Shown piece by piece: positions 1 to 10,898 of a stretch of 10,898 nt of DNA; position 1 is the stretch's first letter, and every line of letters begins with the position of its first letter. A model generated the notes under the pieces. It was not told where the DNA came from, ran no database searches, and saw nothing but the letters and a program-made list of their open reading frames with translations. Position numbers and translations under genes: made by a program. Origin of the DNA: JBGPLH01 sp041486365 [NCBI: Thermodesulfobacteriota bacterium] (GTDB taxonomy: Bacteria > JAUYMQ01); NCBI GenBank assembly GCA_041486365.1, contig JBGPLH010000084.1, forward strand, positions 1-10,898. Direction: 5' to 3'.

Positions 1-869
1 AGGACGGCGGAGGCCGCCTGGTCCGCCGTCGCGCCTCCGGCGTGCAGCAGGAATCCGAGCGCCGCATCGCGCGATCCGAGCCCCTGGGGGATCAGCGAGA
101 CGATCCCGATGAGGTAGGCGGCGCAGTAGGCGGCCAGGAGGAAAAGAATCGGCGGGTCGATCCCCGACGCGCGAAGGCTCACTTTCAGCATCCCGGCCAC
201 CGCAAGATCCACCAGCAGGAAACAGATGGCGAAGATCCCGACGAGCGGGGGCCGGACGTGGGCCGCCGCGGCCAGGAGCGGCGCCGCGGCCGGGCGAAGT
301 CGCGCCGGCAGCCGCGCGAGGATTGCGTCGGGATGACGGACGGCGACGCGCCCGACGACCATGGCGAGGACCGCGCCCACCACCGCCGCGAGCGCGAGCA
401 GCGCGCCCGACGTGCCCTTGAGCGCGGGGATCGCGAGGGGAGCCGCCGCCACGGACGCCAGCGCCGCCACGGCGATCGCCAGGAACCCCTCCAGCGGTAT
501 CAGGATCGAGCCGGCGGCAAGCGGAACGCCGTAGCGCTCCTTCAGAAGATAGACCCGCATCGGAAATCCCATGCGGAGCGGATTCGTGGCGTTCACCGCC
601 TGGGAGGCCAGCATCACCGCCGAAAGGCCGAGGAAGGGAACGCGCGCACCCGCGCGCCGCAGGAAGATCCAGGAAGGGAGGAAGGTCAGCGCCATTCCCG
701 CCGAGACGAGCACGAGGATCGCGCCCCAGCCGGCCACGTCGAGGCTCGGGACGATGGCCCGGGGATCTAACCGCGCGAGGGCCCATAAGGCGCATGCGGC
801 GGCGGCCAGCAGGAACCCCCGCTCGATCCATCGCCGCGCATTGCTCCTCGCCGGCCCCGTCGCGCGCAT
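1..869 (-). CDS. Flippase-like integral membrane protein (UPF0104/AglD2, LPG-synthase TM-like), 3' end outside window
   Basis: I translated this minus-strand frame from the ATG at 869-867; 289 codons are visible and no stop occurs before the left edge, so the C-terminus is missing. The protein is very hydrophobic, with likely membrane segments near residues 18-33, 48-68, 120-145, 157-173, 210-230 and 241-262. Two blocks match the UPF0104 family (TIGR00374-like, related to the membrane part of lysylphosphatidylglycerol synthase): N-A-T-N-P-L-R-M-G with a following R at 93-105, and S-L-I-P-Q-G-L-G-S-R-D-A-A-L at 258-271. Family members are proposed to move or bind lipid-linked substrates, and archaeal AglD acts in glycan assembly. 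The start lies 10 bases after the radical SAM stop, with AGGGG (881-877) seven bases upstream and overlapping that stop, so it belongs to the same operon. The family call is solid; transport activity is inferred. Confidence 0.82.
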   Translation of the reverse strand, partial: MRATGPARSNARRWIERGFLLAAAACALWALARLDPRAIVPSLDVAGWGAILVLVSAGMALTFLPSWIFLRRAGARVPFLGLSAVMLASQAVNATNPLRMGFPMRVYLLKERYGVPLAAGSILIPLEGFLAIAVAALASVAAAPLAIPALKGTSGALLALAAVVGAVLAMVVGRVAVRHPDAILARLPARLRPAAAPLLAAAAHVRPPLVGIFAICFLLVDLAVAGMLKVSLRASGIDPPILFLLAAYCAAYLIGIVSLIPQGLGSRDAALGFLLHAGGATADQAASAV

Positions 870-879
870 GGCGGCGCCC

Positions 880-2046
880 CTATTCGTCGACCCGCACCTG
901 GAGCGGGATGAGGTCCGTCGGTTCCTCCGAGCCGGGGGACGCGCCGCCTGGCGTGCCCAGCGGATGTCCCGCGTGTCCCGGCATATTCGCCCGGGAAGGG
1001 CCCGGCTGTGGCCGCGACGTCATGCCGCACCAGGAGCGGCAGTGGTCGGGGTAGTCCTCGTCGAGCATGAGCTGGCGGAAGTCCCTGGCCGCCCCCGACT
1101 CCAGCGCTCCGCGCAGGCCCGTCTCGAAGACGCTCGCAAGCGGCCGGTGCGCGTAGTTGCAGCAGGGCGCGAGGTATCCGTCCTTGTTGATGTAGACGAT
1201 CCCGGCGAAGGGGCTCACGCAGGGGCTCGGCCGATCGAGGAAGTACTCCAGGTTGTCGACGTTCGTCTCGAAGCCGTAGGAGTGGCACTTCGCGCGAACC
1301 TCGTCCATGAACGAGCGCACGTCGGGGTCCGTCACCGTGAGGCTCACGAATCCGTGATCGAGGCTCGCGGTGCTCTCGTGCAGCCCCTGGAAGTGGAGCG
1401 TCTTCACGTTGCCGATGCCGGCGGCCAGCTCCGGCATGTTCCGGAGCGAGTCGATGTTGTCCCGGCTCACCACCGCGTTGATCCGGAGGGGGATGTTCGA
1501 GATCGAGGTGAAGTAGCGCATGTTGTCGAGGATCCGGTTGAGATCCACCTTTCGGATCGCGCGGAACGTCTCCGGATCGGTCGCGTCGATGCTCACGGCC
1601 AGCTCGCCGAGGCCCGACTCGACCAGCTCCTTGCCCAGGTGCCGCAGCATCGTCCCGTTGGTCGTCACCGAGGGAGTGCGAACGTACTTCGCGGCGTGGC
1701 GGATCACCTCGATGATGCGCGGGTACATGAGCGGCTCCCCCTCTCCGAACAGGTGGAGCAGGCGCACGCCCCTGCACTCCTCGATGAGCTTCATGAGGGG
1801 ATCGAAGGGCATGTCGCCCACCTGCCCGAGCATCTCGAGGTTCTCGCGGTAGCACCACTTGCAGCGCATGTTGCAGCGGTTCGTGATCTCAATCTGCACC
1901 ACGCTGGGGGGGAAGTTGTAGTAGCGCAGCCGGGCGTGACGCCGCAGCACGCGCACCTCGAACAGGCGGAGTACGTCGAGCTTGTTCTTGGCCCAGAGGG
2001 CGCGGGTGAGGTAGCGGGCACGATGAAGGTTCGGGAGCCTGGTCAT
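880..2046 (-). CDS. Radical SAM protein with reduced SPASM/twitch-type C-terminal cluster domain
   Basis: The 388-residue protein carries the radical SAM signature C58-x3-C62-x2-C65 (CNMRCKWC), which binds the [4Fe-4S] cluster that cleaves SAM. It is followed by GEGEP at 101-105, the usual GGE-type SAM-binding motif, and a TTNGT strand at 128-132. A second cysteine set lies near the end: C276-x13-G290-x4-C295, C296, then C336-x3-C340. This fits the start of a SPASM domain but with fewer cysteines than the full form, suggesting one auxiliary cluster. Residues 342-380 form a Pro/Gly/Ser-rich tail that is probably disordered. The ATG start (2046-2044) overlaps the methyltransferase stop in an ATGA junction, so translation is coupled. 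The substrate is unknown. In this setting it may modify a sugar, lipid or peptide, and nothing seen here decides which. Family call sure, reaction open. Confidence 0.93.
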   Translation of the reverse strand: MTRLPNLHRARYLTRALWAKNKLDVLRLFEVRVLRRHARLRYYNFPPSVVQIEITNRCNMRCKWCYRENLEMLGQVGDMPFDPLMKLIEECRGVRLLHLFGEGEPLMYPRIIEVIRHAAKYVRTPSVTTNGTMLRHLGKELVESGLGELAVSIDATDPETFRAIRKVDLNRILDNMRYFTSISNIPLRINAVVSRDNIDSLRNMPELAAGIGNVKTLHFQGLHESTASLDHGFVSLTVTDPDVRSFMDEVRAKCHSYGFETNVDNLEYFLDRPSPCVSPFAGIVYINKDGYLAPCCNYAHRPLASVFETGLRGALESGAARDFRQLMLDEDYPDHCRSWCGMTSRPQPGPSRANMPGHAGHPLGTPGGASPGSEEPTDLIPLQVRVDE

Positions 2047-2894
2047 GACGAGGGGTTTCCTTCCTTATGGATCGGCACGCCGCCCTGATCCGAAGGCGTC
2101 GCGACGAAGAAGTGTTGCCGGAAGAACAGGTTCCGGAGACCGGGCACGTGGCTCGCCGCCCAGGCGATCGGGTGCTTGCCGGGGAGGTTCGCGTTCTTCA
2201 CCACGGTCGTGTTGGCGAGGAGCCGCAGCCCCGCCGCCCGACACAGCCGATCCACGGATCCGGGCGCGTAATAGAACGTGTGGGTGATGCCGGGCTCCGG
2301 CGCGCGGTGGGCCGGGGCGTGATCGAGCGCGCCGATCGAGAGGATCACCCCGCCGGGGCGGAGGAGCGCGCGAAACCGGCGAAGCGCCCCGAGGGGGTCG
2401 TGCAGGTAGCAGAAATTGTCGAACATCGTGATCGCGTCGAGGGAGTGGCGAGGAAGCCCGAACATCTCGTCGGGCCCCATCACCTTGAGGTGGGGCGTCT
2501 CCCGCGCGATCACCTCCCGCGCGGCGGCCGACGCCTCCACCCCGAGCACGTCCCAGCCGGCATCGGAGGCCTCCCGGAGGAAGACCCCCGTCGCGCACCC
2601 GTGATCGAGGAGCCGTCCCTTCGGCGCGTAGCGGGAGAGCAGGCGGACCCGCCGGCGGGCGACCTCGCGCCGCCAGTCCTCTCCCGAACGGTAGTGCTCG
2701 TAGTCGGTCTCCGGTCGCGCGGCGAAGTATTGATCGTAGAAATCGGCCATGGCGACCGGCGCGGGTCGCGTGGCGGCGTAGCACAGCCCGCACCGCTCGC
2801 AGCGCACGATGGTGTGCGGCGGCTTCACGGCGACGACCTGCCGCGGCGCGGGGCCGCACAGCGCGCAGGACACGTTTTCCGTCCGCTCGTTCAC
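2043..2894 (-). CDS. Class I SAM-dependent methyltransferase with N-terminal zinc-binding cysteines
   Basis: The 283-residue protein starts at GTG 2894-2892, which overlaps the upstream stop as GTGA and has AGGAG (2904-2900) five bases upstream. The open frame continues far upstream without a start codon being needed, so this coupled GTG is the best start. Two cysteine pairs, C10-x2-C13 and C32-x2-C35, form a small zinc-knuckle-like module of the kind seen before Methyltransf_11/23 domains. Motif I is LLDHGCATGVF at 95-105, with an acidic strand end in GVEAS at 118-122, and a later LLRPGG loop at 177-182. The core is a Rossmann-type SAM methyltransferase. Some sugar C-methyltransferases share this zinc-plus-MT layout but are longer (about 410 residues), so the acceptor cannot be assigned. 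Position between the Rossmann protein and the radical SAM gene suggests action on the sugar or glycolipid product of the cluster. Confidence 0.9.
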   Translation of the reverse strand: MNERTENVSCALCGPAPRQVVAVKPPHTIVRCERCGLCYAATRPAPVAMADFYDQYFAARPETDYEHYRSGEDWRREVARRRVRLLSRYAPKGRLLDHGCATGVFLREASDAGWDVLGVEASAAAREVIARETPHLKVMGPDEMFGLPRHSLDAITMFDNFCYLHDPLGALRRFRALLRPGGVILSIGALDHAPAHRAPEPGITHTFYYAPGSVDRLCRAAGLRLLANTTVVKNANLPGKHPIAWAASHVPGLRNLFFRQHFFVATPSDQGGVPIHKEGNPSS

Positions 2895-3949
2895 GCCTTC
2901 TCCTGCACGATCTGGACAAGACCCTCGGGCCCCGGTCGCCCGAGCAGCATGGCGCCCGCGAGGAGCCCCGCGGCGTGGAGTCCCACCAGCGGCGCGGGTC
3001 CCAGGAAGGCCATCGTCCGTCCCATCCGCCGCGGGCCGATCTCCTCTTCCGGAAAGACCGGCACCCCGGCCGCCCGCAGCTCGCCCGCGCGCACCCACCC
3101 GGCGAACTGCACCACGGCCGCATGGGGCGCGCGCTTCTGAAGCGACTCGACCGTGAGCTCGCCCCCCTTGCCGAGCATCAGCGTCTCCCGCGTGTAGTCC
3201 GCCACGATGAGGGCGTCGGCGTTCTCCACGGCCCAGGCGCCCTGATCGCCCGAGAGCGCCGGCGCGCGCCGGACATCGGCGCCGAGCCTCGCCAGCGCCG
3301 CCGCGATCCGGCTCGCGAACTTGCCCTCCCCCGCCACGGCGATGCGCGATCCGTGCACCTCCACCTGGAGGGCGTGGAGCATCTTCACGGCCAGCAGGCC
3401 GTTGTGCTCGAATACGTCCACCGCCGGGTGATCCTCGTTCACGGCCCCCACGCGCACGCCGCGGGCGGCGCAGGCGCGGAGATCGATGTCCCCCGGCCGC
3501 AGCTCCCAGGCCTCGCACATGGCCGCGATGGCCCTGCCCTCGCCGAGCTTCCGGACCTTCGCGGCGTCCAGCGGCCGCACCCAGCCGAGGTTCGTGACGA
3601 GATCGGCCTGCTTCAGCACCGCCGCGTCGAGCCGTTCCACCGGGACGATCCGATCCGGGGCACCCAGTCGCTTGCGCCAGCGCGCCACCACACCGTGAGC
3701 CTCCTCCGCCTTCCCGAAGCGCGAGTCGCGCGCCACCGTGAACACGCGCGACGCGCCCGCCCAGGCAGCGATCACGGCGGTGAGGGCGAAGTGGCCCGTT
3801 GCCGCCTCGGTGACGACGGTCAGGTCGCGGAGATCGAGCCCGAGCCGATCGACCGCGCGGGTGACGAGCGCGCGCAGCCGCTCCGGATGGACCGCTTCCG
3901 GTCCCGGCTCCGGGGCCCCGCGACGCGGATCAGGAGTGTAGGGGGTCAT
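2891..3949 (-). CDS. Unassigned Rossmann-type, dehydrogenase-like protein
   Basis: I do not recognise a characterised family for this 352-residue protein. It has two alpha/beta lobes. The first contains TVVTEAATGHFALTAVIAAW (44-63) and a V-F-T-V-A-R-D-S-R-F strand-loop at 69-78. The second has a dinucleotide-type glycine loop, A-V-A-G-E-G-K-F-A-S at 204-213, with a long helix and G-A-D-V following. Between them lie C145-E-A-W-E-L-R-P-G-D-I-D-L and VGAVNEDHPAVDVFEHNG (167-184). The two-lobe layout recalls D-2-hydroxyacid dehydrogenases or S-adenosylhomocysteine hydrolase, but I see no diagnostic catalytic His/Glu/Arg set of either. The start ATG 3949-3947 overlaps the aminotransferase stop (ATGA) and has a near-perfect AGGAGGT six bases upstream. 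Its stop overlaps the methyltransferase start. Context suggests an NAD(P)-dependent redox or lyase step on a nucleotide sugar; that is inference only. Confidence 0.88.
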   Translation of the reverse strand: MTPYTPDPRRGAPEPGPEAVHPERLRALVTRAVDRLGLDLRDLTVVTEAATGHFALTAVIAAWAGASRVFTVARDSRFGKAEEAHGVVARWRKRLGAPDRIVPVERLDAAVLKQADLVTNLGWVRPLDAAKVRKLGEGRAIAAMCEAWELRPGDIDLRACAARGVRVGAVNEDHPAVDVFEHNGLLAVKMLHALQVEVHGSRIAVAGEGKFASRIAAALARLGADVRRAPALSGDQGAWAVENADALIVADYTRETLMLGKGGELTVESLQKRAPHAAVVQFAGWVRAGELRAAGVPVFPEEEIGPRRMGRTMAFLGPAPLVGLHAAGLLAGAMLLGRPGPEGLVQIVQEKA

Positions 3950-5073
3950 GCGAGCACCTCCTCGAGGACGGCGATCACGCGGCCCTGGGACGCGGGGTCG
4001 AGCCCCGGGTACAGCGGCAGGGTCAGGCTCCGCTCCCGGGCGGCCCACGCCTTCGGGAACGACTTCGCGGAGAAACCGAAGGTCCGCCGGTACCAACCGA
4101 GCATCGGCACGCAGTGGGTACCGAAAGTGGTCTCGATCCCGGCGCGGCGGAGCGCCGCCTGGGCCCGCGCGCGGAGCGCCCGGGTGCCCAGGAGCAGGAC
4201 GAAGGACTGCACCGATGCGATCCGGTCCGGGAGCGCGGGCGGAAGGCCTACCCCGGGCAGCCGCGAGAGCGCCTCGCGGTAGATCGCCGCCAGCCGCGCC
4301 CTCTCCGCGAGGATCCCGTCGAGGCGCTCGAGCTGCGCGAGTCCGAGCGCTCCCTGGAGATCGGTCATGCGGCAGTTGAGCCCCGGTGCATCCATCCGGA
4401 ATCCCTTCGCCGTGCGCACCATCCCGTGGGTGCGCAGCGCCGCAACCCGCTGGGCCAGCGCGCGCTTCGACGTCACCAGCAGACCCCCCTCCCCCGTCGT
4501 CAGGATCTTGCGGGGGTGAAAGGAGAAGCAGCCCGCGTCGCCCATCGTCCCGGCCGCGCGGCCGCGCAGGCTCGACCCGAGCGCGCATGCGGCGTCCTCG
4601 ACCAGGGCCGGGCGCTTCCCCCGCGCCGCGCGGGATACCGCGGCGCGGATGGCCGGGACATCGGCGAGCAGCCCGAAGGGATGCACGGGCATCACGGCGC
4701 GCGTGCGGCGCGTCACCGCGCGGGCGAAGTCCTCGGGCGTCGCCGCGAAGTCCTCCAGCGAGATGTCGCAGAACACGGGGCGCGCTCCGAGCCAGGCCAC
4801 CACGTTGGCCGTGGCCGGAAACGTGAAGGCCGGCACGATCACCTCGTTGCCGCGCCCCACGCCGAGCGCGGCCAGCGCGAGATGGAGCGCCGCGGTCCCG
4901 CTGCTCACCGCCACCGCGTGCGGCACGCCCAGGCGCGCCGCCAGCTTCTCCTCGAAGGCGCGCACGCAGGGACCCTGCACGAGGTCGCCGCCCGCGAGCA
5001 CCGCGAGCACGGCCCGCGCCTCGTCCCGGCCGACCGAGGGACGCGAGAGGCGAATATCGTTAGGCGCGCGCAC
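3946..5073 (-). CDS. DegT/DnrJ/EryC1/StrS-family PLP-dependent aminotransferase (nucleotide-sugar type)
   Basis: This is a full-length (375-residue) member of the DegT/DnrJ/EryC1/StrS family, which usually transfers an amino group from glutamate to a keto sugar bound to a nucleotide. Landmarks are the phosphate-binding S57-S-G-T-A-A, the E-V-I-V-P-A-F-T-F-P block at 77-86, E159-D160 contacting the PLP ring, and the Schiff-base lysine K189 in SFHPRKILTTGEGG. The residue after E-D-A-A is Cys (C163) where many relatives carry Gln or His. The start is GTG 5073-5071, with GGAG (5084-5081) seven bases upstream, and it overlaps the epimerase gene by 14 bases. Pairing with a sugar epimerase/dehydratase upstream supports production of an amino sugar. 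Some family members act as dehydratases instead, but those lack the lysine, which is present here. Confidence 0.95.
   Translation of the reverse strand: MRAPNDIRLSRPSVGRDEARAVLAVLAGGDLVQGPCVRAFEEKLAARLGVPHAVAVSSGTAALHLALAALGVGRGNEVIVPAFTFPATANVVAWLGARPVFCDISLEDFAATPEDFARAVTRRTRAVMPVHPFGLLADVPAIRAAVSRAARGKRPALVEDAACALGSSLRGRAAGTMGDAGCFSFHPRKILTTGEGGLLVTSKRALAQRVAALRTHGMVRTAKGFRMDAPGLNCRMTDLQGALGLAQLERLDGILAERARLAAIYREALSRLPGVGLPPALPDRIASVQSFVLLLGTRALRARAQAALRRAGIETTFGTHCVPMLGWYRRTFGFSAKSFPKAWAARERSLTLPLYPGLDPASQGRVIAVLEEVLA
3956..3962 (-). promoter_or_regulatory. Near-perfect Shine-Dalgarno site for the unassigned Rossmann gene
   Basis: AGGAGGT lies inside the last codons of the aminotransferase gene, six bases before ATG 3949-3947. 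It is the strongest ribosome site in the window and suggests the Rossmann gene is initiated efficiently in its own right, beyond simple re-initiation at the ATGA overlap. Confidence 0.75.
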
Positions 5074-6046
5074 GGTACCACTCCGCCGTGCGGCGGATGC
5101 CCTCGTCGAGGTCCACCGTCGGCCTGTAACCGAGAATCTGCTTCGCCTTCTCGACGCTCGGGATCCGCAGCTCCACGTCGGCGTAGGTCTTCGGCTCGAA
5201 CAGGATGCGGCTCCTGCTGGCCGTCACGCGCACCACCGTCTCGGCGAGGCCGTAGATGGTGATCGTCCCGCGCGGGTTGCCGATGTTGAAGACGTTTCCC
5301 ACCGCCGCCGGGTTCTCCAGGCACAGCAGGACCCCCTCGACGAGATCGTCCACGTAGCACCAGGAGCGGATCTGATCGCCGTCGCCATGGATCGTGATGG
5401 GCTCGTCCACGATGGCCCGGCGCACGAAGATCTGCAGCGCGCCCTCCCCCACCTGACCCGGTCCGTACACGTTGAAGGGGCGCACGCTCACGACGGGGAG
5501 GCCGTGCTCCTTGTGGTAGGCGTGGCCCATGTGTTCGGCGGCGAGCTTGGAGACCGCGTAGGTCCAGCGCCCCTCGCCCACCCGGCCGAGCGTCGTGGAG
5601 TCGTGCTCCTCGCTCTTGTAGGCGTAGGAGCCGAACACCTCGCTCGTGGAGAAATCGACGAGCCGCAAGAGGCCCGGCTGCTCCATCGCCACCTCGAGCA
5701 CGTTGTAGGTGCCGATCAGGTTCACCTTCATCGTGGTCGTGATGCTCCGTATCACGGTGTCGATGCCCGCGATCGCCGCGAGATGCAGCACGATCTGCGC
5801 CCCTCGCATCGCCTCGCGCAGCCGCGGGAGATCGAGCACATCGCCCCTCACCACGGTGAGGTTCGCGTTGTTCCAGACGGCCCCCTGCCCGATCGCGTCG
5901 CGGGCGAAGGTGTCGTACACCGTGACCCGGTTCTTCTGGATCAGCCGCTCGACGAGCCGGCTCCCGATGAACCCGGCCCCGCCGGTGATGAAGATCCGCT
6001 TGCCTTCAATTGCCCCGAAGGATGTTCGGGCCGATATCTCATCCAT
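5060..6046 (-). CDS. NAD-dependent epimerase/dehydratase (extended SDR) acting on a nucleotide sugar
   Basis: The 328-residue protein is an extended short-chain dehydrogenase. It shows the NAD-binding loop TGGAGFIGS at 21-29, an acidic D45 after the second strand, GDVLD at 68-72, HLAA at 88-91, STSEVFG at 133-139 and the catalytic Y163-x3-K167. The substrate-binding RPFNVYGPGQ (189-198) and RSWCYVDDLVEG (227-238) blocks are typical of UDP-glucose 4-epimerase, dTDP-glucose 4,6-dehydratase and UDP-glucuronate decarboxylase relatives. I cannot choose among these by eye; the TSEVFG and RWTYAVSK segments lean toward the dehydratase/decarboxylase side. It starts at ATG 6046-6044, overlapping the GT4 stop by 8 bases, and its end overlaps the aminotransferase by 14 bases. 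It probably supplies the keto or epimerised sugar used by that enzyme. Confidence 0.94.
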   Translation of the reverse strand: MDEISARTSFGAIEGKRIFITGGAGFIGSRLVERLIQKNRVTVYDTFARDAIGQGAVWNNANLTVVRGDVLDLPRLREAMRGAQIVLHLAAIAGIDTVIRSITTTMKVNLIGTYNVLEVAMEQPGLLRLVDFSTSEVFGSYAYKSEEHDSTTLGRVGEGRWTYAVSKLAAEHMGHAYHKEHGLPVVSVRPFNVYGPGQVGEGALQIFVRRAIVDEPITIHGDGDQIRSWCYVDDLVEGVLLCLENPAAVGNVFNIGNPRGTITIYGLAETVVRVTASRSRILFEPKTYADVELRIPSVEKAKQILGYRPTVDLDEGIRRTAEWYRARA

Positions 6047-7259
6047 GAATCACGCTCTCGTAGAGTTTCACGGTGTCCTCGAAGATCAGGGCGTCGCGCC
6101 GGCGGTGCCCCTCGAGCAGCGCCCGCCCGCCCGCGGCCAGGTGATCGGCCAGCTCCGCATGGCCGAGGATCCGGTCCAGGGCCCGCGCGAGGGCCTGCGG
6201 ATCGCGCTGGGGCACCAGCCAGGCGGCCTCGCCGTGGGGGAACAGCTTCCTCTCACGTGAGAGTTGCTCGGCCCCGGCTTCGCCGGGGACCTCGGGTCCC
6301 CCGTCGCTGATCACGCAGGGCACGCCGAGGAACATCGCCTCCGCGATCGTCGTCGCCCAGCAGTTGTCCACCAGGTTGAGCGAGACGAAGACGTCGGAGG
6401 CCTTGAGAATCGAGCCGATGTCGCTCCGCGCGCCGGTGAAGATCGCGTGCCGAGCCAGCCCGCGCGACTTCGCGCCCTCCCGCAGCGAGAGCAGCAACGG
6501 GCCGTCACCGACGAAGACCACCTTGGTCGCCGGACGGCGCTCGACGAGCGCCACCGCCGCGTCGAGCATCGTCCAGGGATCCTTCAGCTCGTACATTCGC
6601 GCGATGAAGGTCACGACGCGCTCGTCCTTGATCCCGAACTCCCTCCGGAACGCGTCGCCGTCACCCGCGTTCAGCTCGGCTTCGTCCAGCGGCAGGAAGA
6701 TCCGGTGCAGCGTCTTGCCGGTCATGCCCGCGAGCCGGTCGTGCACCTCCGTGCAGGGCCCGCCGCCGGCCACGACCGCACGGGCGCCGCGGATCACGGC
6801 GCGGTTGAAGACCTCCGGCAGCGCGCGAAGGTCCGTCCCGAGCGGCGAGAGGATCACGGGCTTGCGCCGGAGCGCTCCCGCCGCGAGCGCCAGGGCGCCC
6901 ATCGGCGTCCAGAAGGCGTGGATCACGTCGGTGCCGCCCGCCATCCCGAGCGCGTGCCAGACCATGCTGGCCGCGAAGGGCACGAGCTGCGCCGCGGCTC
7001 CGCGATCACGCCCGATCCCCACCATCAGCCCCGCATCCCCGTAGGCGAGCCGCTCGAGCCGCCGGGGCCAGACGTAGGGGAACCGGATCACCTCCACGCC
7101 GTCCAGCCGCTCCCGCGCGGGAGCGTCCTTCCACCCTGGCGCGATCACCCGCACGTCGACGCCGAGGGCGGCGAGGCCCCTCGCCCAGCGGTGGAGGAAG
7201 ATCCCGGCGTAGTCGCCCGCGTATCGCGGGTAGGAGCTGGTGAGCCACAGGGCGCGCAT
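6039..7259 (-). CDS. Glycosyltransferase family 4 (GT-B fold)
   Basis: This 406-residue protein has the two-lobe GT-B layout of family GT4. The N-terminal lobe begins with W-L-T-S-S-Y-P-R-Y-A-G-D-Y-A-G and contains HAFWTPMGALAL (114-125), a probable acceptor-lobe segment. The donor lobe starts near residue 212 with VVTFIARMYELKDPWTML, followed by VVFVGDGPLL at 247-256 and the sugar-nucleotide block ending A-E307-A-M-F-L-G-V-P-C-V-I-S-D-G. In the usual E-x7-E motif the second Glu is E307, while the first position holds Asn (N299). The same substitution occurs in known GT4 subgroups, so the enzyme need not be dead. The ATG 7259-7257 lacks a strong ribosome site. The gene begins 39 bases after the GT2 stop and overlaps the epimerase gene. 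It likely extends a lipid-linked or capsular glycan in the cytoplasm; donor and acceptor are unknown. Confidence 0.93.
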   Translation of the reverse strand: MRALWLTSSYPRYAGDYAGIFLHRWARGLAALGVDVRVIAPGWKDAPARERLDGVEVIRFPYVWPRRLERLAYGDAGLMVGIGRDRGAAAQLVPFAASMVWHALGMAGGTDVIHAFWTPMGALALAAGALRRKPVILSPLGTDLRALPEVFNRAVIRGARAVVAGGGPCTEVHDRLAGMTGKTLHRIFLPLDEAELNAGDGDAFRREFGIKDERVVTFIARMYELKDPWTMLDAAVALVERRPATKVVFVGDGPLLLSLREGAKSRGLARHAIFTGARSDIGSILKASDVFVSLNLVDNCWATTIAEAMFLGVPCVISDGGPEVPGEAGAEQLSRERKLFPHGEAAWLVPQRDPQALARALDRILGHAELADHLAAGGRALLEGHRRRDALIFEDTVKLYESVIHG

Positions 7260-7298
7260 GAGAGAGCGAGTTCCATTCCGCGCAGTGCGCGCGAGCGG

Positions 7299-8249
7299 CT
7301 AGCGAAGGTGCTTGTTGTAGTCCAGGTCGAACCACATGGCGAAGAACAGCGACTGGCATCCGGAGATGCACAGGAACGCCGCGAAGATCGCCGTGGTCGG
7401 CGCGATCGGGCCGACCAGCAGCCGATACGCGATTCCCCAGGCGCCCAGGGCCAACCCCGCCGGCGTCAGGGTGAGGCCGAGCAGGTAGAAGAAGAGCAGC
7501 GGGTGGAAATCGCGGATCACGTACTTCTCCCTGAGCCGCCACAGGAACCCGCGCCAGAGCAGCCAGGAGATCCGGGGCACCACCGCGTGGAGCCGGATCC
7601 CCGATTTCTCGCCGATCCGGTAGATGGGCCGCACCGAGACGTCGCACACGCGGAAGTTGGCCACGTTCAGCTTGATCAGGATGTCGTTCGGCATGCCGTA
7701 CCGCGTGTAGATCCGGTCCAGGTCGATCCGCCCGAGCGCGGTGGCGGTGATCGCCGTGTAGCCGCTCTGAGAATCGGCGATGTGCCAGTAGCCGGACGCG
7801 ATCTTGGTGAGGAGCGAGAGGAACGCGTTGCCCAGGTAGCGGACACGGGGGATCATCTCCCAGGACTCGCCGCGGAAGAGGCGGTTCCCCTTCGTGTACT
7901 CGGCCTGTCCCGAGCTGATCGGATCGAGCAGCCGCGGCAGATCGTCGGGGTCCATCTGGGCGTCGCCCGCCATCACGACGGCCACGTCGAGCCCGGCCTC
8001 CAGCGCCCTCCGGTAGCCGGTCACGATGGCGGCGCCCACGCCCAGGTTGCGCTCGTGGTGCAGGAGCTCGATCTTCCCTGCGGCGAAGGACACGTGGCTG
8101 CGCACCACGTCGGTGGTCTTGTCGGAGCTCGCGTCGTTCACGACGATGATCCGGTCGACGAAGTCCGGCATCGTCGAGAGAACCCGCCCGATCAGGAGCT
8201 CCTCGTTGTGAGCCGGCACGACGACGGCGACGGACTTGCCTTCGTACAC
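7299..8249 (-). CDS. Glycosyltransferase family 2, polyprenyl-phosphate sugar synthase-like, with two C-terminal TM helices
   Basis: The protein has a GT-A domain of the dolichol-phosphate mannosyltransferase type: VAVVVPAHNEE (7-17), IIVVNDASSD (34-43), HHERNLGVGAAIVTGY (64-79) and the metal-binding region M-A-G-D96-A-Q-M-D100-P. ADSQSGYTAI at 158-167 is typical of DPM1-like enzymes. After residue 250 come two hydrophobic stretches (about 251-278 and 281-306), so the catalytic domain is probably held at the inner face of the membrane. I chose the GTG at 8249-8247 (316 residues) because the conserved fold begins six residues later and GAGGGG lies four bases upstream. A TTG at 8294 would add 15 unremarkable residues and has no ribosome site. 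The likely job is loading a sugar from a nucleotide donor onto polyprenyl phosphate for use by a GT-C enzyme; the sugar is unknown. Confidence 0.92.
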   Translation of the reverse strand: MYEGKSVAVVVPAHNEELLIGRVLSTMPDFVDRIIVVNDASSDKTTDVVRSHVSFAAGKIELLHHERNLGVGAAIVTGYRRALEAGLDVAVVMAGDAQMDPDDLPRLLDPISSGQAEYTKGNRLFRGESWEMIPRVRYLGNAFLSLLTKIASGYWHIADSQSGYTAITATALGRIDLDRIYTRYGMPNDILIKLNVANFRVCDVSVRPIYRIGEKSGIRLHAVVPRISWLLWRGFLWRLREKYVIRDFHPLLFFYLLGLTLTPAGLALGAWGIAYRLLVGPIAPTTAIFAAFLCISGCQSLFFAMWFDLDYNKHLR

Positions 8250-8253
8250 CTTG

Positions 8254-8259
8254 CCCCTC
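8254..8259 (-). promoter_or_regulatory. Ribosome binding site before the GT2 GTG start
   Basis: GAGGGG ends four bases before GTG 8249-8247, slightly closer than ideal. It is the only purine-rich site near any candidate start of the GT2 gene; the TTG at 8294 has none. Confidence 0.45.
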
Positions 8260-8341
8260 GGATTCGATGGGTCCGAACCGCACGATCGGCCCAACGTTCT
8301 TATCGACAGGAGGCTTCCGATGCTTGAGTGCCGAAAGCCAC

Positions 8342-8368
8342 ATAATTCATTGATTTTTCACTGGTAAA
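8342..8368 (-). promoter_or_regulatory. Possible promoter for the glycan operon (AT-rich gap before GT2)
   Basis: The 108 bases between the DUF2723 stop and the GT2 start begin with an AT-rich patch unlike its surroundings. TTTACC (8368-8363) and AATTAT (8347-8342) could serve as -35 and -10 boxes with a 15-base spacer, each matching the sigma-70 consensus at four of six positions. The short spacer makes this weak; the base composition is the main reason to note it. Confidence 0.22.
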
Positions 8369-10535
8369 TCGGATTGAGCCCCGGGGCGATCCCCGCGTCC
8401 AAGGCACCCAGCTCCTTGCGCCAGGCCCTTACGAATCGTCGGTCGTCGGTCCGGGACAGGGCCACGAGGAGGGCCTTCCTGGCTGGCTCGTGACGGCCCT
8501 GTTTTCGTTCGAGCACAGAGAGCTGGTAGAAGGGCTCCGCCGCCCGGGAATTGATGGCAATGGCCTCCGCGATGATCCGGCGGGCGGCGTCATACTTGTC
8601 CTGCCCGATCTTCAGGATCGCCACGTTGAGGAGGTAGGTGGCGTTCCCCGGGGTCAACGATGCGGCCCGTCGGAACATCCGCTCGGCATCATCCCACCTA
8701 CCTGTGAGGCCATAGGCCTCGCCCAGCGCGTTCGCGACGGTGGCATCCTCCGGAGAGAGCCGTACCGCGAGATCCAGGAGACGGACCGCGTCACGAGGAC
8801 GCCCCTGCAGCTTGAAGACTCCGGCGGAGGCGGTGAGCATGTACCCGTGGTACCGGAGGGCTTCCTGATCGAGGAGCGTGCCCGGGTGTCTCGCGGGCCG
8901 GCCGGGGCTTTCTGAAAGTGAGAGCTCCTCTCGAAGAAAGCGCCCCATGTCCTCGAAATACGTCTGCCCCTCGGCCGCGGTGGCCGATCGCTTACCCGAC
9001 GCGTCGAACCGCCAGAGATACCGCCACGGCCGCAGGTAGGCATAGACATTCTGGTTCAGCTCGCCGAGGGGCTCCCAGTAGACTGGCGCTCTGGGCAGGT
9101 TCGCGCGGAGAAGGGCTTGGAAATAGACATCCCATCTCACCTGCCTGGGATCGGTCGCGGGGAACGCGAGTTTGGGAAAGCGCTCGGCCGTGACGGGGGT
9201 GAAGTTCTCGGCGGTGGTGAGATCGCTCACGAGCAGAATCGAGACGTCCGGGCGCATCCCTTCCACGTCCTGGAGGTAACGGAACGCAAACCAGTTCGCT
9301 GTTGCGAACACGATCGCGTCGGGCGGAAGGGGCAGCAAGTTCTCCTCCGCCACGCGCCGACCCGAGCCGTCCGCACGCGAGAGAGCGCGAATCGCCCCCC
9401 CGCGGGTTTGCGCGGCGATCTCCAGGATGAGGGCGAGACAGGCGAGCACGGCAGCGAACCGGAGAGCCACGGCTCGTCGATCGACAAGCCATCCCAACCC
9501 GATCCCGCACCAGAGCGCCACGAAGAAGAAGGTCGGGAGATAGGCATCCGGGATGGTCCAGATGAACAGGAAGAAAAGCAGGTTCCCCGAGCAGAAGAGG
9601 ATGGTAAACAAACCGATTCGGATCGATCGCGCCAACAGGATCGCGATTCCGGCGATGGCCCCCAGCCAGCCGACCGGAGTCATCTCCGCGTTCAGGTTCA
9701 CCATGAACTGCCGCACGTAGGGCCACAGCGGCCTGGCCATGTCGGTGAAATGGAATGACGAGTCCTTGCGATCGGAGACGAGATTCCAGAATCGGGCCCA
9801 GCTGTCGGGATGACCCCAATTGATGGGAGGCTCCGTTCCAGCGCGAAGAGGGAGGTAGAGGTAGACGGAGGCGCCGAGCCCGCCGAACAGCGCCACAAGT
9901 AGGAGTGTCCGGACCCCCCGTCCACGCGGGAGCCCAGTCAGCACCATGAGTGCGAAGGCCGGCAGGAAGAAGACGGACGTGCCGTGAACGCCGCCCGACA
10001 GGCCCAGGACGAAAGCGCACCCGAAGAGGTAGCGATCGTCCTGTGTGACGCACCATCGGACGGCGAGCCACACGATCAGGGACACGACCCACGCAAAGAC
10101 GGCGTAGACCTCCCCCTGCGTGGCGTAGCCCCAGAACGTTGGGCTGACGGCCAGCAGTGTCGCGGCGAGAATCCCCGCGAGGCGCCCCCCGCTGGGTGTG
10201 CCCCCCCAGCGGCCATGGATTTCGGCCAGGCACAGCGCGAGGAACACACAGGCCAGGGTGGCGCAGACCGAGGAAAGAAGGTTCACCCGAACGGCCACGG
10301 CACCCAGGGGAATGAGCGTCATGAGATTTGCCAGCAGGACGTACGTGGGTGATCCGGGGGGATGGGGAATTCCGAGCGTATAGGCGACGTCAGCGAACTC
10401 GGGCGTGTCATACCAGGCGATGGTTGGACGCAGGGTCAGGACGTAGAGAAGGGCGAGCGAGGTCCCCCAGATCCACAGAAGCATCGCCGATGGGCGTTGG
10501 TTCGCCGCGCCCTCTTGTGTCCCGAATGCGTTCAT
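8358..10535 (-). CDS. DUF2723 (TMEM260-like) multi-pass membrane glycosyltransferase candidate with C-terminal TPR repeats
   Basis: The 725-residue protein has about ten hydrophobic helices in residues 17-375 and a soluble C-terminal half. The first loop holds R-P-T-I-A-W-Y-D43-T-P-E46-F and G-I-P-H-P-P-G-S-P, the hallmark of DUF2723. This family includes human TMEM260, reported as a protein O-mannosyltransferase, and the acidic loop pair (D43/E46) is the expected GT-C active-site position. Residues 405-500 form an extracytoplasmic-looking domain (VFATANWFAFRYLQ, RPDVSILLVSDL). TPR-like helices follow at about 561-695 (YHGYMLTASAGVFKLQGRPRD, ANALGEAYGLTGRWDDAERM, and so on). I start at ATG 10535-10533, with GGAG (10546-10543) seven bases upstream; the open frame reaches 10613, but that extension runs through the upstream terminator. 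By eye the gene is somewhat less G/C-biased than the operon downstream. Acceptor and sugar are not predictable. Confidence 0.88.
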   Translation of the reverse strand: MNAFGTQEGAANQRPSAMLLWIWGTSLALLYVLTLRPTIAWYDTPEFADVAYTLGIPHPPGSPTYVLLANLMTLIPLGAVAVRVNLLSSVCATLACVFLALCLAEIHGRWGGTPSGGRLAGILAATLLAVSPTFWGYATQGEVYAVFAWVVSLIVWLAVRWCVTQDDRYLFGCAFVLGLSGGVHGTSVFFLPAFALMVLTGLPRGRGVRTLLLVALFGGLGASVYLYLPLRAGTEPPINWGHPDSWARFWNLVSDRKDSSFHFTDMARPLWPYVRQFMVNLNAEMTPVGWLGAIAGIAILLARSIRIGLFTILFCSGNLLFFLFIWTIPDAYLPTFFFVALWCGIGLGWLVDRRAVALRFAAVLACLALILEIAAQTRGGAIRALSRADGSGRRVAEENLLPLPPDAIVFATANWFAFRYLQDVEGMRPDVSILLVSDLTTAENFTPVTAERFPKLAFPATDPRQVRWDVYFQALLRANLPRAPVYWEPLGELNQNVYAYLRPWRYLWRFDASGKRSATAAEGQTYFEDMGRFLREELSLSESPGRPARHPGTLLDQEALRYHGYMLTASAGVFKLQGRPRDAVRLLDLAVRLSPEDATVANALGEAYGLTGRWDDAERMFRRAASLTPGNATYLLNVAILKIGQDKYDAARRIIAEAIAINSRAAEPFYQLSVLERKQGRHEPARKALLVALSRTDDRRFVRAWRKELGALDAGIAPGLNPIYQ

Positions 10536-10542
10536 ACCCCCA

Positions 10543-10546
10543 CTCC
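10543..10546 (-). promoter_or_regulatory. Ribosome binding site deciding the DUF2723 gene start
   Basis: GGAG lies seven bases before ATG 10535-10533. The open frame itself continues upstream to 10613 with another ATG at 10562-10560, but those lack a well-placed purine-rich site and the longer frame would include the pilin terminator. This supports the shorter start. Confidence 0.6.
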
Positions 10547-10577
10547 GCGCATGCCCCCTCATCGGTCGATCCGACGG

Positions 10578-10611
10578 AAAATAAAGGGGGCCCGAAGGCC
10601 ATCCGGGCCCC
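10578..10611 (-). terminator. Rho-independent terminator after the pilin-like gene
   Basis: On the minus strand an 8-bp G/C stem is formed by 10611-10604 and 10594-10587 (GGGGCCCG on the plus strand pairing with CGGGCCCC), with a 9-base loop. It is followed directly by CTTTATTTTCC, a T-rich run (10586-10577) that stands out in this GC-rich DNA. It sits 53 bases after the pilin stop and 42 bases before the DUF2723 start, so it should end the pilin transcript. Confidence 0.85.
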
Positions 10612-10623
10612 ACTTCACCGAAC

Positions 10624-10664: not shown

Positions 10665-10898
10665 CTAGTTGATCACGTCGTTGTCGCTGGGGACCTGTGT
10701 CGCCTCGCGACCTGCCTCCGTCACCGTCCAGAGGTCGCGCGTGGCGTCGCCATCGATGTTGCCACCCGCGGTCCCCGTGAAGGACGTGCCGCCCGTGAAG
10801 GTGAAGCTGTTCATGATGTCGGTGTAGACCTTCGGCGTCGAGGCCGGCGTGAACCCGGCTGTCGTCAGAACCGCATACGTGTTGTTCTCGGCAAAGTA
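10665..10898 (-). CDS. Type IV pilin-like protein, C-terminal part (5' end outside window)
   Basis: The last 77 codons are visible, in frame from the right edge to TAG at 10667-10665. The fragment begins Y-F-A-E-N-N-T-Y-A-V-L-T-T-A-G-F-T-P, the segment that follows the long N-terminal helix in many PilA-type pilins. It then runs through short beta-prone, Gly/Thr-rich stretches to G-N-I-D-G-D-A-T-R-D-L-W-T-V-T-E, a common pilin C-terminal pattern. The prepilin peptidase site and hydrophobic helix would be outside the window, so the assignment rests on this C-terminal pattern alone; a type II secretion pseudopilin is the main alternative. No cysteine pair (D-loop disulphide) is present in the visible part. 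A strong terminator follows, implying its own transcript. Confidence 0.7.
   Translation of the reverse strand, partial: YFAENNTYAVLTTAGFTPASTPKVYTDIMNSFTFTGGTSFTGTAGGNIDGDATRDLWTVTEAGREATQVPSDNDVIN

Follow-up and report, generated by a model that had tools for sequence, protein, structure and literature searches.

A rare protein family with two predicted Rossmann-like lobes accompanies SDR and DegT genes of putative sugar-nucleotide operons

For many unusual sugars of bacterial glycans the structures are known and the genes are not. The stretch of DNA analysed here (the window, 10,898 nucleotides of contig JBGPLH010000084.1 from a Thermodesulfobacteriota bacterium) raises this question for a protein, here called Q, encoded between an aminotransferase and a methyltransferase gene: to which family does it belong, and which step may it perform? 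The genes on the minus strand run in the order TMEM260-like/TPR, GT2, GT4, SDR, DegT, Q, methyltransferase, radical SAM/SPASM and LPG_synthase_TM, with the following features, given in order of position:

3..869, minus strand: LPG_synthase_TM membrane protein, partial (PF03706, 4.3e-25)
880..2046, minus strand: radical SAM/SPASM protein in the Q operon (PF04055, PF13186)
2043..2894, minus strand: SAM methyltransferase with N-terminal CxxC...CxxC (PF13489, 1.3e-19)
2891..3949, minus strand: Q, a 352-aa protein with two Rossmann-like lobes, predicted (ORF, conservation, model)
3946..5073, minus strand: DegT/DnrJ/EryC1/StrS aminotransferase (PF01041, 1.1e-101)
3955..3963, minus strand: Shine-Dalgarno-like site GAGGAGGTG 5' of the Q ATG (by eye)
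5060..6046, minus strand: sugar-nucleotide SDR with the motif STSEVFG (Pfam and PDB relatives)
6039..7259, minus strand: GT4-type glycosyltransferase (PF13692, PF00534)
7299..8294, minus strand: GT2-type glycosyltransferase, start codon uncertain (PF00535)
8358..10613, minus strand: TMEM260-like protein O-mannosyltransferase domain with TPRs (PF11028, 5.6e-36)

The Q open reading frame is complete, as an earlier, sequence-only reading of this DNA had stated, and runs from an ATG start to a TGA stop. That reading had also described 4-base overlaps with both neighbours, and these are seen at 3946-3949, where the Q start and the DegT stop share four bases, and at 2891-2894, where the Q stop and the GTG start of the methyltransferase do so. 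Its claim that Q has the best ribosome site of the window stands in part: of the seven gene starts compared by eye (all but those at 10613 and 869), that of Q has, in GAGGAGGTG, the strongest Shine-Dalgarno-like site. A deltaproteobacterial MAG (locus L001) carries a Q that is 71% identical to that of the window within the same gene order (GT2-GT4-SDR-DegT-Q-methyltransferase-radical SAM); with GTG 6746 as the start there, Q again shares four bases with each neighbour. Between the two loci, the dN/dS of Q is 0.26, and that of six neighbouring genes 0.13-0.35. Because gene order, overlaps, identity and dN/dS together go beyond chance, Q is a genuine gene under purifying selection.

Searches of the family libraries with Q reached no family cut-off in Pfam (at E<=10) and none in NCBIfam, and for all six members of the family collected below nothing rose above the cut-offs of Pfam, NCBIfam or PHROGs. 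PF00389, whose cut-off is 24.6 bits, scored at best 12.7 bits on Q members, with two of the six members at E<=1; TIGR02853 of NCBIfam (dipicolinate synthase A, DpaA) gave 17.2 bits against 319.65, weak NCBIfam matches of the DpaA type had E values of 0.0028 and 0.0024, and a PDB sequence search with Q returned a weak 40-residue DpaA match alone (E 0.41). The Pfam AdoHcyase family was absent for Q at E<=10 and for the six members at E<=1, in a library that detects true SAH hydrolases. In the literature we recognised no paper as treating the Q protein, for whose family there is no name that could serve as a search term. None of the libraries searched describes the Q family; the kinds of fold and pathway to which it is compared here are already known. 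Two further statements of the sequence-only reading were thus borne out, namely that Q falls in no characterised family and that it matches no catalytic signature of a characterised dehydrogenase.

Four further full-length relatives and one fragment were found, giving five full-length members including that of the window, two of which (window and L001) represent one operon. L001 came from a scan of genome contigs by exact 8-residue patterns, a method that detects close relatives only. Searches of plasmids by tblastn yielded relatives on a plasmid of Isosphaeraceae bacterium EP7 (L002, 39% identical) and on a Paracoccus liaowanqingii plasmid (L003, 40% identical), and a genome profile search found one in genome G151 (L009, E 2.9e-86). 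In such profile searches over largely overlapping sets, Q was found in 2 of 192, 2 of 290, 2 of 384 and 2 of 386 genomes, always the same two, and as scoring took in at most 11, 7, 5 and 5 candidates from each genome, absence of Q from the others is soft; the raw tallies of three each took in one match that was dropped. Two matches were set aside as noise: that in G112 (E 6.7e-4) runs antisense to an ORF resembling an ABC transporter ATPase, and that in G077 (E 5.1e-4) covers 80 positions within an 871-aa frame. A group of 16 genomes held no Q, the E. coli genomes showed no DNA-level match to the Q gene of L003, and the phage collection gave no match to Q, to its L002 relative or to the SDR (E 1e-40). 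Five scans of viral contigs gave either no match (two scans) or one locus alone (L006, three scans). There, at 7715-8062, the N-lobe of a Q relative (116 aa, 38% identity over 107 aa) runs off the end of a viral contig, which also bears genes for the small and large terminase subunits (PHROG matches at 1.5e-29 and 1e-25).

Among the five full-length members 56 columns are invariant, many of them polar; the N-lobe (37-195) holds 39 of these and the C-lobe (196-340) the other 17. The conserved blocks TEAA[TS]G, TNxGxxRP, MxE[AS]WExR, ACxxRG, NExHP and QFxG likewise lie mostly in the N-lobe. The sequence-only reading had placed a dinucleotide-type glycine loop at residues 204-213, which in the window read AVAGEGKFAS. 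The loop is indeed present there, but it is not a feature of the family: the position reads AGEGKF or AGRGKF in the window and L001, SDNPF in L002, CDNPF in L003 and SNDPF in L009, and F211 is the sole residue of the region that is invariant across the five. Since the loop is kept in only two of five members, we do not regard it as the cofactor signature of the Q family, and no claim about a cofactor is based on it.

An SDR gene lies one or two genes upstream of Q in all five loci (window, L001, L002, L003 and L009), and in the first four of these DegT is directly upstream. Of the co-occurrence that the sequence-only reading would have counted as support, the DegT part therefore recurs, whereas a methyltransferase follows Q in two of five loci, the window and L001, which are one and the same operon. 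DegT and Q overlap by four bases in L003 and are separated by 273 bases in L002. Locus L009 reads SDR-Q-PF13480 protein-carbamoyltransferase, with Q overlapping the end of the SDR by 11 bases; genome G151 has 13 DegT matches, none of them on this contig, so that the view of Q as locked into an amino-sugar operon is not supported. The Q genes of L002 and L003 sit within polysaccharide clusters. A formyltransferase, closest to ArnA, comes directly after Q in L002 and another is found about 5 kb from Q on the opposite strand in L003, and both clusters have a second DegT. In L002 an exact 85-bp tandem duplication in two copies (12974-13146) covers the last part of Q and the first part of the formyltransferase gene. 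The SDRs fall into two types, that of the window, L001 and L009 (58-77% identical to each other) and another in L002 (29% identical to the window's) and L003 (30% over 270 aa). The SDR upstream of Q in L003 (9776-10703) is split over two frames, by a sequencing error or as a pseudogene. Given the other SDR type in L002 and L003 and the broken frame in L003, a substrate common to all five loci is doubtful.

Among 384 genomes, 20 have an SDR matching that of the window at E<=1e-60, 14 of them at an identity of at least 50%. Q was found in 2 of these 14 (G001 and G151; at most five candidates per genome scored), and tblastn with four Q proteins detected no Q in the other 18 of the 20 SDR neighbourhoods. 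In eight of the 12 Q-less loci at an identity of at least 50% the sequence continues for 3.9 kb or more past the SDR (L084, L087-L093); L085, L086, L094 and L095 end early and tell little. In these eight, DegT stands beside the SDR in four (L084, L088, L090, L093), a hexapeptide acyltransferase occurs in four (L087, L089 and L093, Pfam-confirmed; L091, by tblastn only), a formyltransferase in one (L084) and a GNAT-type PF13480 protein in two (L084, L088). An acyl-, formyl- or GNAT-type transferase thus follows SDR(-DegT) in six of the eight loci, and none was seen after the SDR in L090 and L092. After SDR-DegT-GNAT an amidohydrolase-like gene was observed in L084 (1194-1952, PF04909) and in L088 (11081-11824, from a look at the ORF).

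Q looks like an optional module rather than an obligate one. The proposal that it is an obligate step of the pathway does not agree with these SDR orthologues, which mostly stand without Q, its genome-wide absence being soft. The N-formyl-, N-acetyl- and GNAT-type transferases of SDR(-DegT) clusters occupy the same operon slot as Q, but Q has no match to their Pfam families and can sit alongside them. As it stands beside a formyltransferase in L002 and a PF13480 protein in L009, it is not simply a substitute for such enzymes.

A similar cluster logic is seen on plasmids of Pararhizobium and Gloeothece (L011, L012), whose SDRs are 41-43% identical to that of the window and have as neighbours a Gfo/Idh protein, a first DegT, acyltransferases, a nucleotide-sugar dehydrogenase and a second DegT, the latter 58-62% identical to the second DegT of L002 and L003. 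According to PMC10622841, the UDP-GlcNAc3NAcA route comprises WbpA, B, E and D. By their annotation the two clusters fit this route with an SDR and a DegT added, and UDP-GlcNAc3NAcA-type (WbpA/B/E/D-like) clusters would share their logic with the window locus. No Q was found in the stretches of L011 and L012 examined, nor anywhere on the plasmids at E 0.01.

For the fold of Q we used AlphaFold2 models. That of the full-length protein, made from three alignment rows, is of moderate confidence (pLDDT 64.7, pTM 0.53). Foldseek placed SAH hydrolases on top, with chains of D-2-hydroxyacid dehydrogenases (2-HADH) and DpaA within the first 20 listed, and among the VIA-align matches listed DpaA (Z 11.0, rmsd 5.8, 223 residues), phosphoglycerate dehydrogenase (Z 10.7, rmsd 5.5, 213 residues) and SAH hydrolase (Z 10.5, rmsd 7.7, 252 residues) were tied. 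The N-lobe modelled alone (pLDDT 69.9, pTM 0.72) gave formate dehydrogenase and shikimate dehydrogenase first among the Foldseek matches listed, and short-chain dehydrogenases, the NAD domain of DpaA and shikimate dehydrogenase, at Z of about 10-11, among the VIA-align matches listed. Each list holds the best 50 matches, and further families may lie beyond them. Because Rossmann domains are common and the models are moderate, we take from them nothing beyond two Rossmann-like lobes. Models and the profile tests below, taken together, suggest that Q has two such lobes, with a remote likeness to 2-hydroxyacid dehydrogenases, DpaA and SAH hydrolase. The two lobes support, as a prediction, the two-lobed Rossmann protein of the sequence-only reading. 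Membership in the SAH hydrolases was rejected: Q resembles them in fold, as the top Foldseek match of the full-length model, but has no match to their Pfam family.

Profile comparison by hhalign was done with 25 rows for 2-HADH, 27 for OTC/ATC and 3 for SAH hydrolase. Q matched the 2-HADH profiles with a probability of 88% (E 3e-6), in a colinear alignment of 184 columns that takes in both lobes, and it matched OTC/ATC with 51% (E 1.5e-4), with EAATG aligned to STRTR; the value for SAH hydrolase was 1.3%, weak as only three sequences entered it, and those for the SDR and DegT were 0.8% and 0.1%. With the lobes taken apart, the N-lobe reached 39% against 2-HADH (75% against the 2-HADH N-lobe alone) and the C-lobe 24%. 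In controls the 2-HADH profiles matched SAH hydrolase at 92.6%, OTC at 67.4% and SDR at 41.1%. Since unrelated Rossmann families score 41-67% in the same test, we read the 88% as suggestive. By these profiles a remote tie of Q to the 2-HADH group, which is also among the best fold matches listed, is favoured over a tie to transcarbamoylases. The transcarbamoylase relationship, prompted by the EAATG/STRTR and HP motifs, was rejected, its 51% lying below the 67% of the 2-HADH-OTC control.

The closest solved relative of the window SDR is 8VR2 (E 2.6e-116), with UDP-glucuronate decarboxylases next (about 4e-41), and its STSEVFG motif is presumably decarboxylase-like. The best PDB relatives of the window DegT are 9BGP, 9BGR, 8VR3 and 8VR5, followed by ArnB; 8VR2 and 8VR3 we take to be structures from work on a triacetamido-pentose pathway. 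The methyltransferase has a distant likeness to dTDP-3-amino-sugar N,N-dimethyltransferase.

From gene context and models, Q may be an optional tailoring enzyme of a sugar-nucleotide pathway, a role to which we give somewhat less than an even chance. It is proposed because all five full-length Q follow an SDR and four of them directly follow DegT, and because six of the eight Q-less SDR loci hold, after SDR(-DegT), a transferase of the type that modifies amines or hydroxyls. Consistent with it, the gene that comes after Q encodes a formyltransferase in L002, a PF13480 protein in L009 and, in the window and L001, the methyltransferase. Substrate, position of the step and reaction, as we infer them, would be as follows. 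The SDR would make a 4-keto sugar nucleotide, in the SDR subfamily of the window probably a decarboxylated pentose; decarboxylation to the 4-keto pentose would usually be followed by amination at C4 by DegT. Q would take the resulting 4-keto or 4-amino compound as its substrate, with N-acylation or methylation, and transfer, coming later. Its site may lie in the cleft between the lobes, formed by E48, N120, R125, E146, E149, R151, N171, E172 and H174, which are predicted to sit in conserved polar loops where the N-lobe strands end, together with Q281 of the C-lobe. The fold group of Q makes redox chemistry, or chemistry derived from it, the first guess; it would most likely take place at C4 and may be of the NAD(P) type. 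The loss of the glycine loop in three of five members speaks against a textbook NAD site, as does the invariant Glu48, which stands where the first loop glycine of the N-lobe would be expected. Any single reaction assigned to Q would be doubtful at best. Equally tentative is the idea that Q represents a new class of sugar-nucleotide enzyme, performing an undescribed step on 4-keto or 4-amino sugar nucleotides with the ligand site moved to the N-lobe. The blocks TEAA[TS]G, TNxGxxRP, MxE[AS]WExR and NExHP would form that site, and the family spans distant bacterial lineages and a phage-encoded relative.

Q might instead be a true member of the 2-HADH/DpaA group, that is, an ordinary NAD-dependent oxidoreductase of 2-keto or 2-hydroxyacids. 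In 2-HADH (PF00389/PF02826) and DpaA two Rossmann-like lobes follow each other in the order predicted for Q, and the best profile match, the fold matches to DpaA and phosphoglycerate dehydrogenase and the weak DpaA-type library matches all point this way. Yet Q is far under every family cut-off, has conserved motifs of its own and has lost the glycine loop in three of five members. The catalytic set of 2-HADH comprises the Arg of NxxRG, a Glu and a His; the column of this Arg aligns with QFAG of Q, which has no Arg, and the Glu and His columns fall in the weakly aligned end. We consider this membership unlikely.

Similarly improbable is a role for Q as a transferase that modifies the sugar amine and has the two-lobed fold of transcarbamoylases, its EAATG corresponding to the STRTR loop and its NExHP to the HPxQ region. 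The OTC/ATC alignment and the slot of Q, used elsewhere by acylating enzymes, would suit such a transferase, against which stand the higher 2-HADH-OTC control, the lack of a Pfam match and the formyltransferase already present beside Q in L002. A role without catalysis, as scaffold or regulator of an SDR/DegT complex, would explain why the Q frame overlaps DegT in the window, L001 and L003 and why the cofactor loop is degenerate; with many invariant polar residues at predicted N-lobe strand ends, and with Q present in G151 without a neighbouring DegT, we see little chance of this as well. Very improbable is a SAM-type methyltransferase relative in the N-lobe, as weak profile matches of the TEAATG region to motif I of PRMT6 (E 0.5 to 0.73) might suggest: the position after strand 2, where SAM-type methyltransferases carry an acid, is Arg or Lys in five of the six members (Glu in L001 alone), the fold matches listed are dehydrogenase domains, and a separate methyltransferase gene comes after Q.

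In the tailoring role, the Q family, which is rare and travels with the SDR-DegT core, would be a concrete candidate for one of the missing steps in making unusual sugars, and an assay of the step could use enzymes that have relatives of solved structure. Its loci contain protein O-glycosyltransferase-like and pilus-type genes, or polysaccharide genes. As in the window, a TMEM260-like gene with TPRs lies near the SDR in L087 (10307-12685) and L091 (4410-6788); this recurrence of the O-mannosyltransferase domain hints at a bacterial protein O-glycosylation system. Upstream of SDR-Q in L009 are two tandem ORFs with a prepilin methylation motif (6978-7760 and 7703-8446; PF07963), and L089 has a T2SSF gene and a sigma-54 regulator ahead of its SDR. 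The TMEM260-like, prepilin-like and T2SSF genes near the SDR suggest O-glycosylation of pilin or another protein in the window, L087, L091, L009 and L089 loci. At the end of the window (10665-10898), where Pfam gives no match, a minus-strand frame ending at 10665 resembles, by eye only, the tail of a type IV pilin. The radical SAM/SPASM protein of the window (880-2046) is 83% identical to that of L001, and its gene ranks with the most conserved of the seven that were compared.
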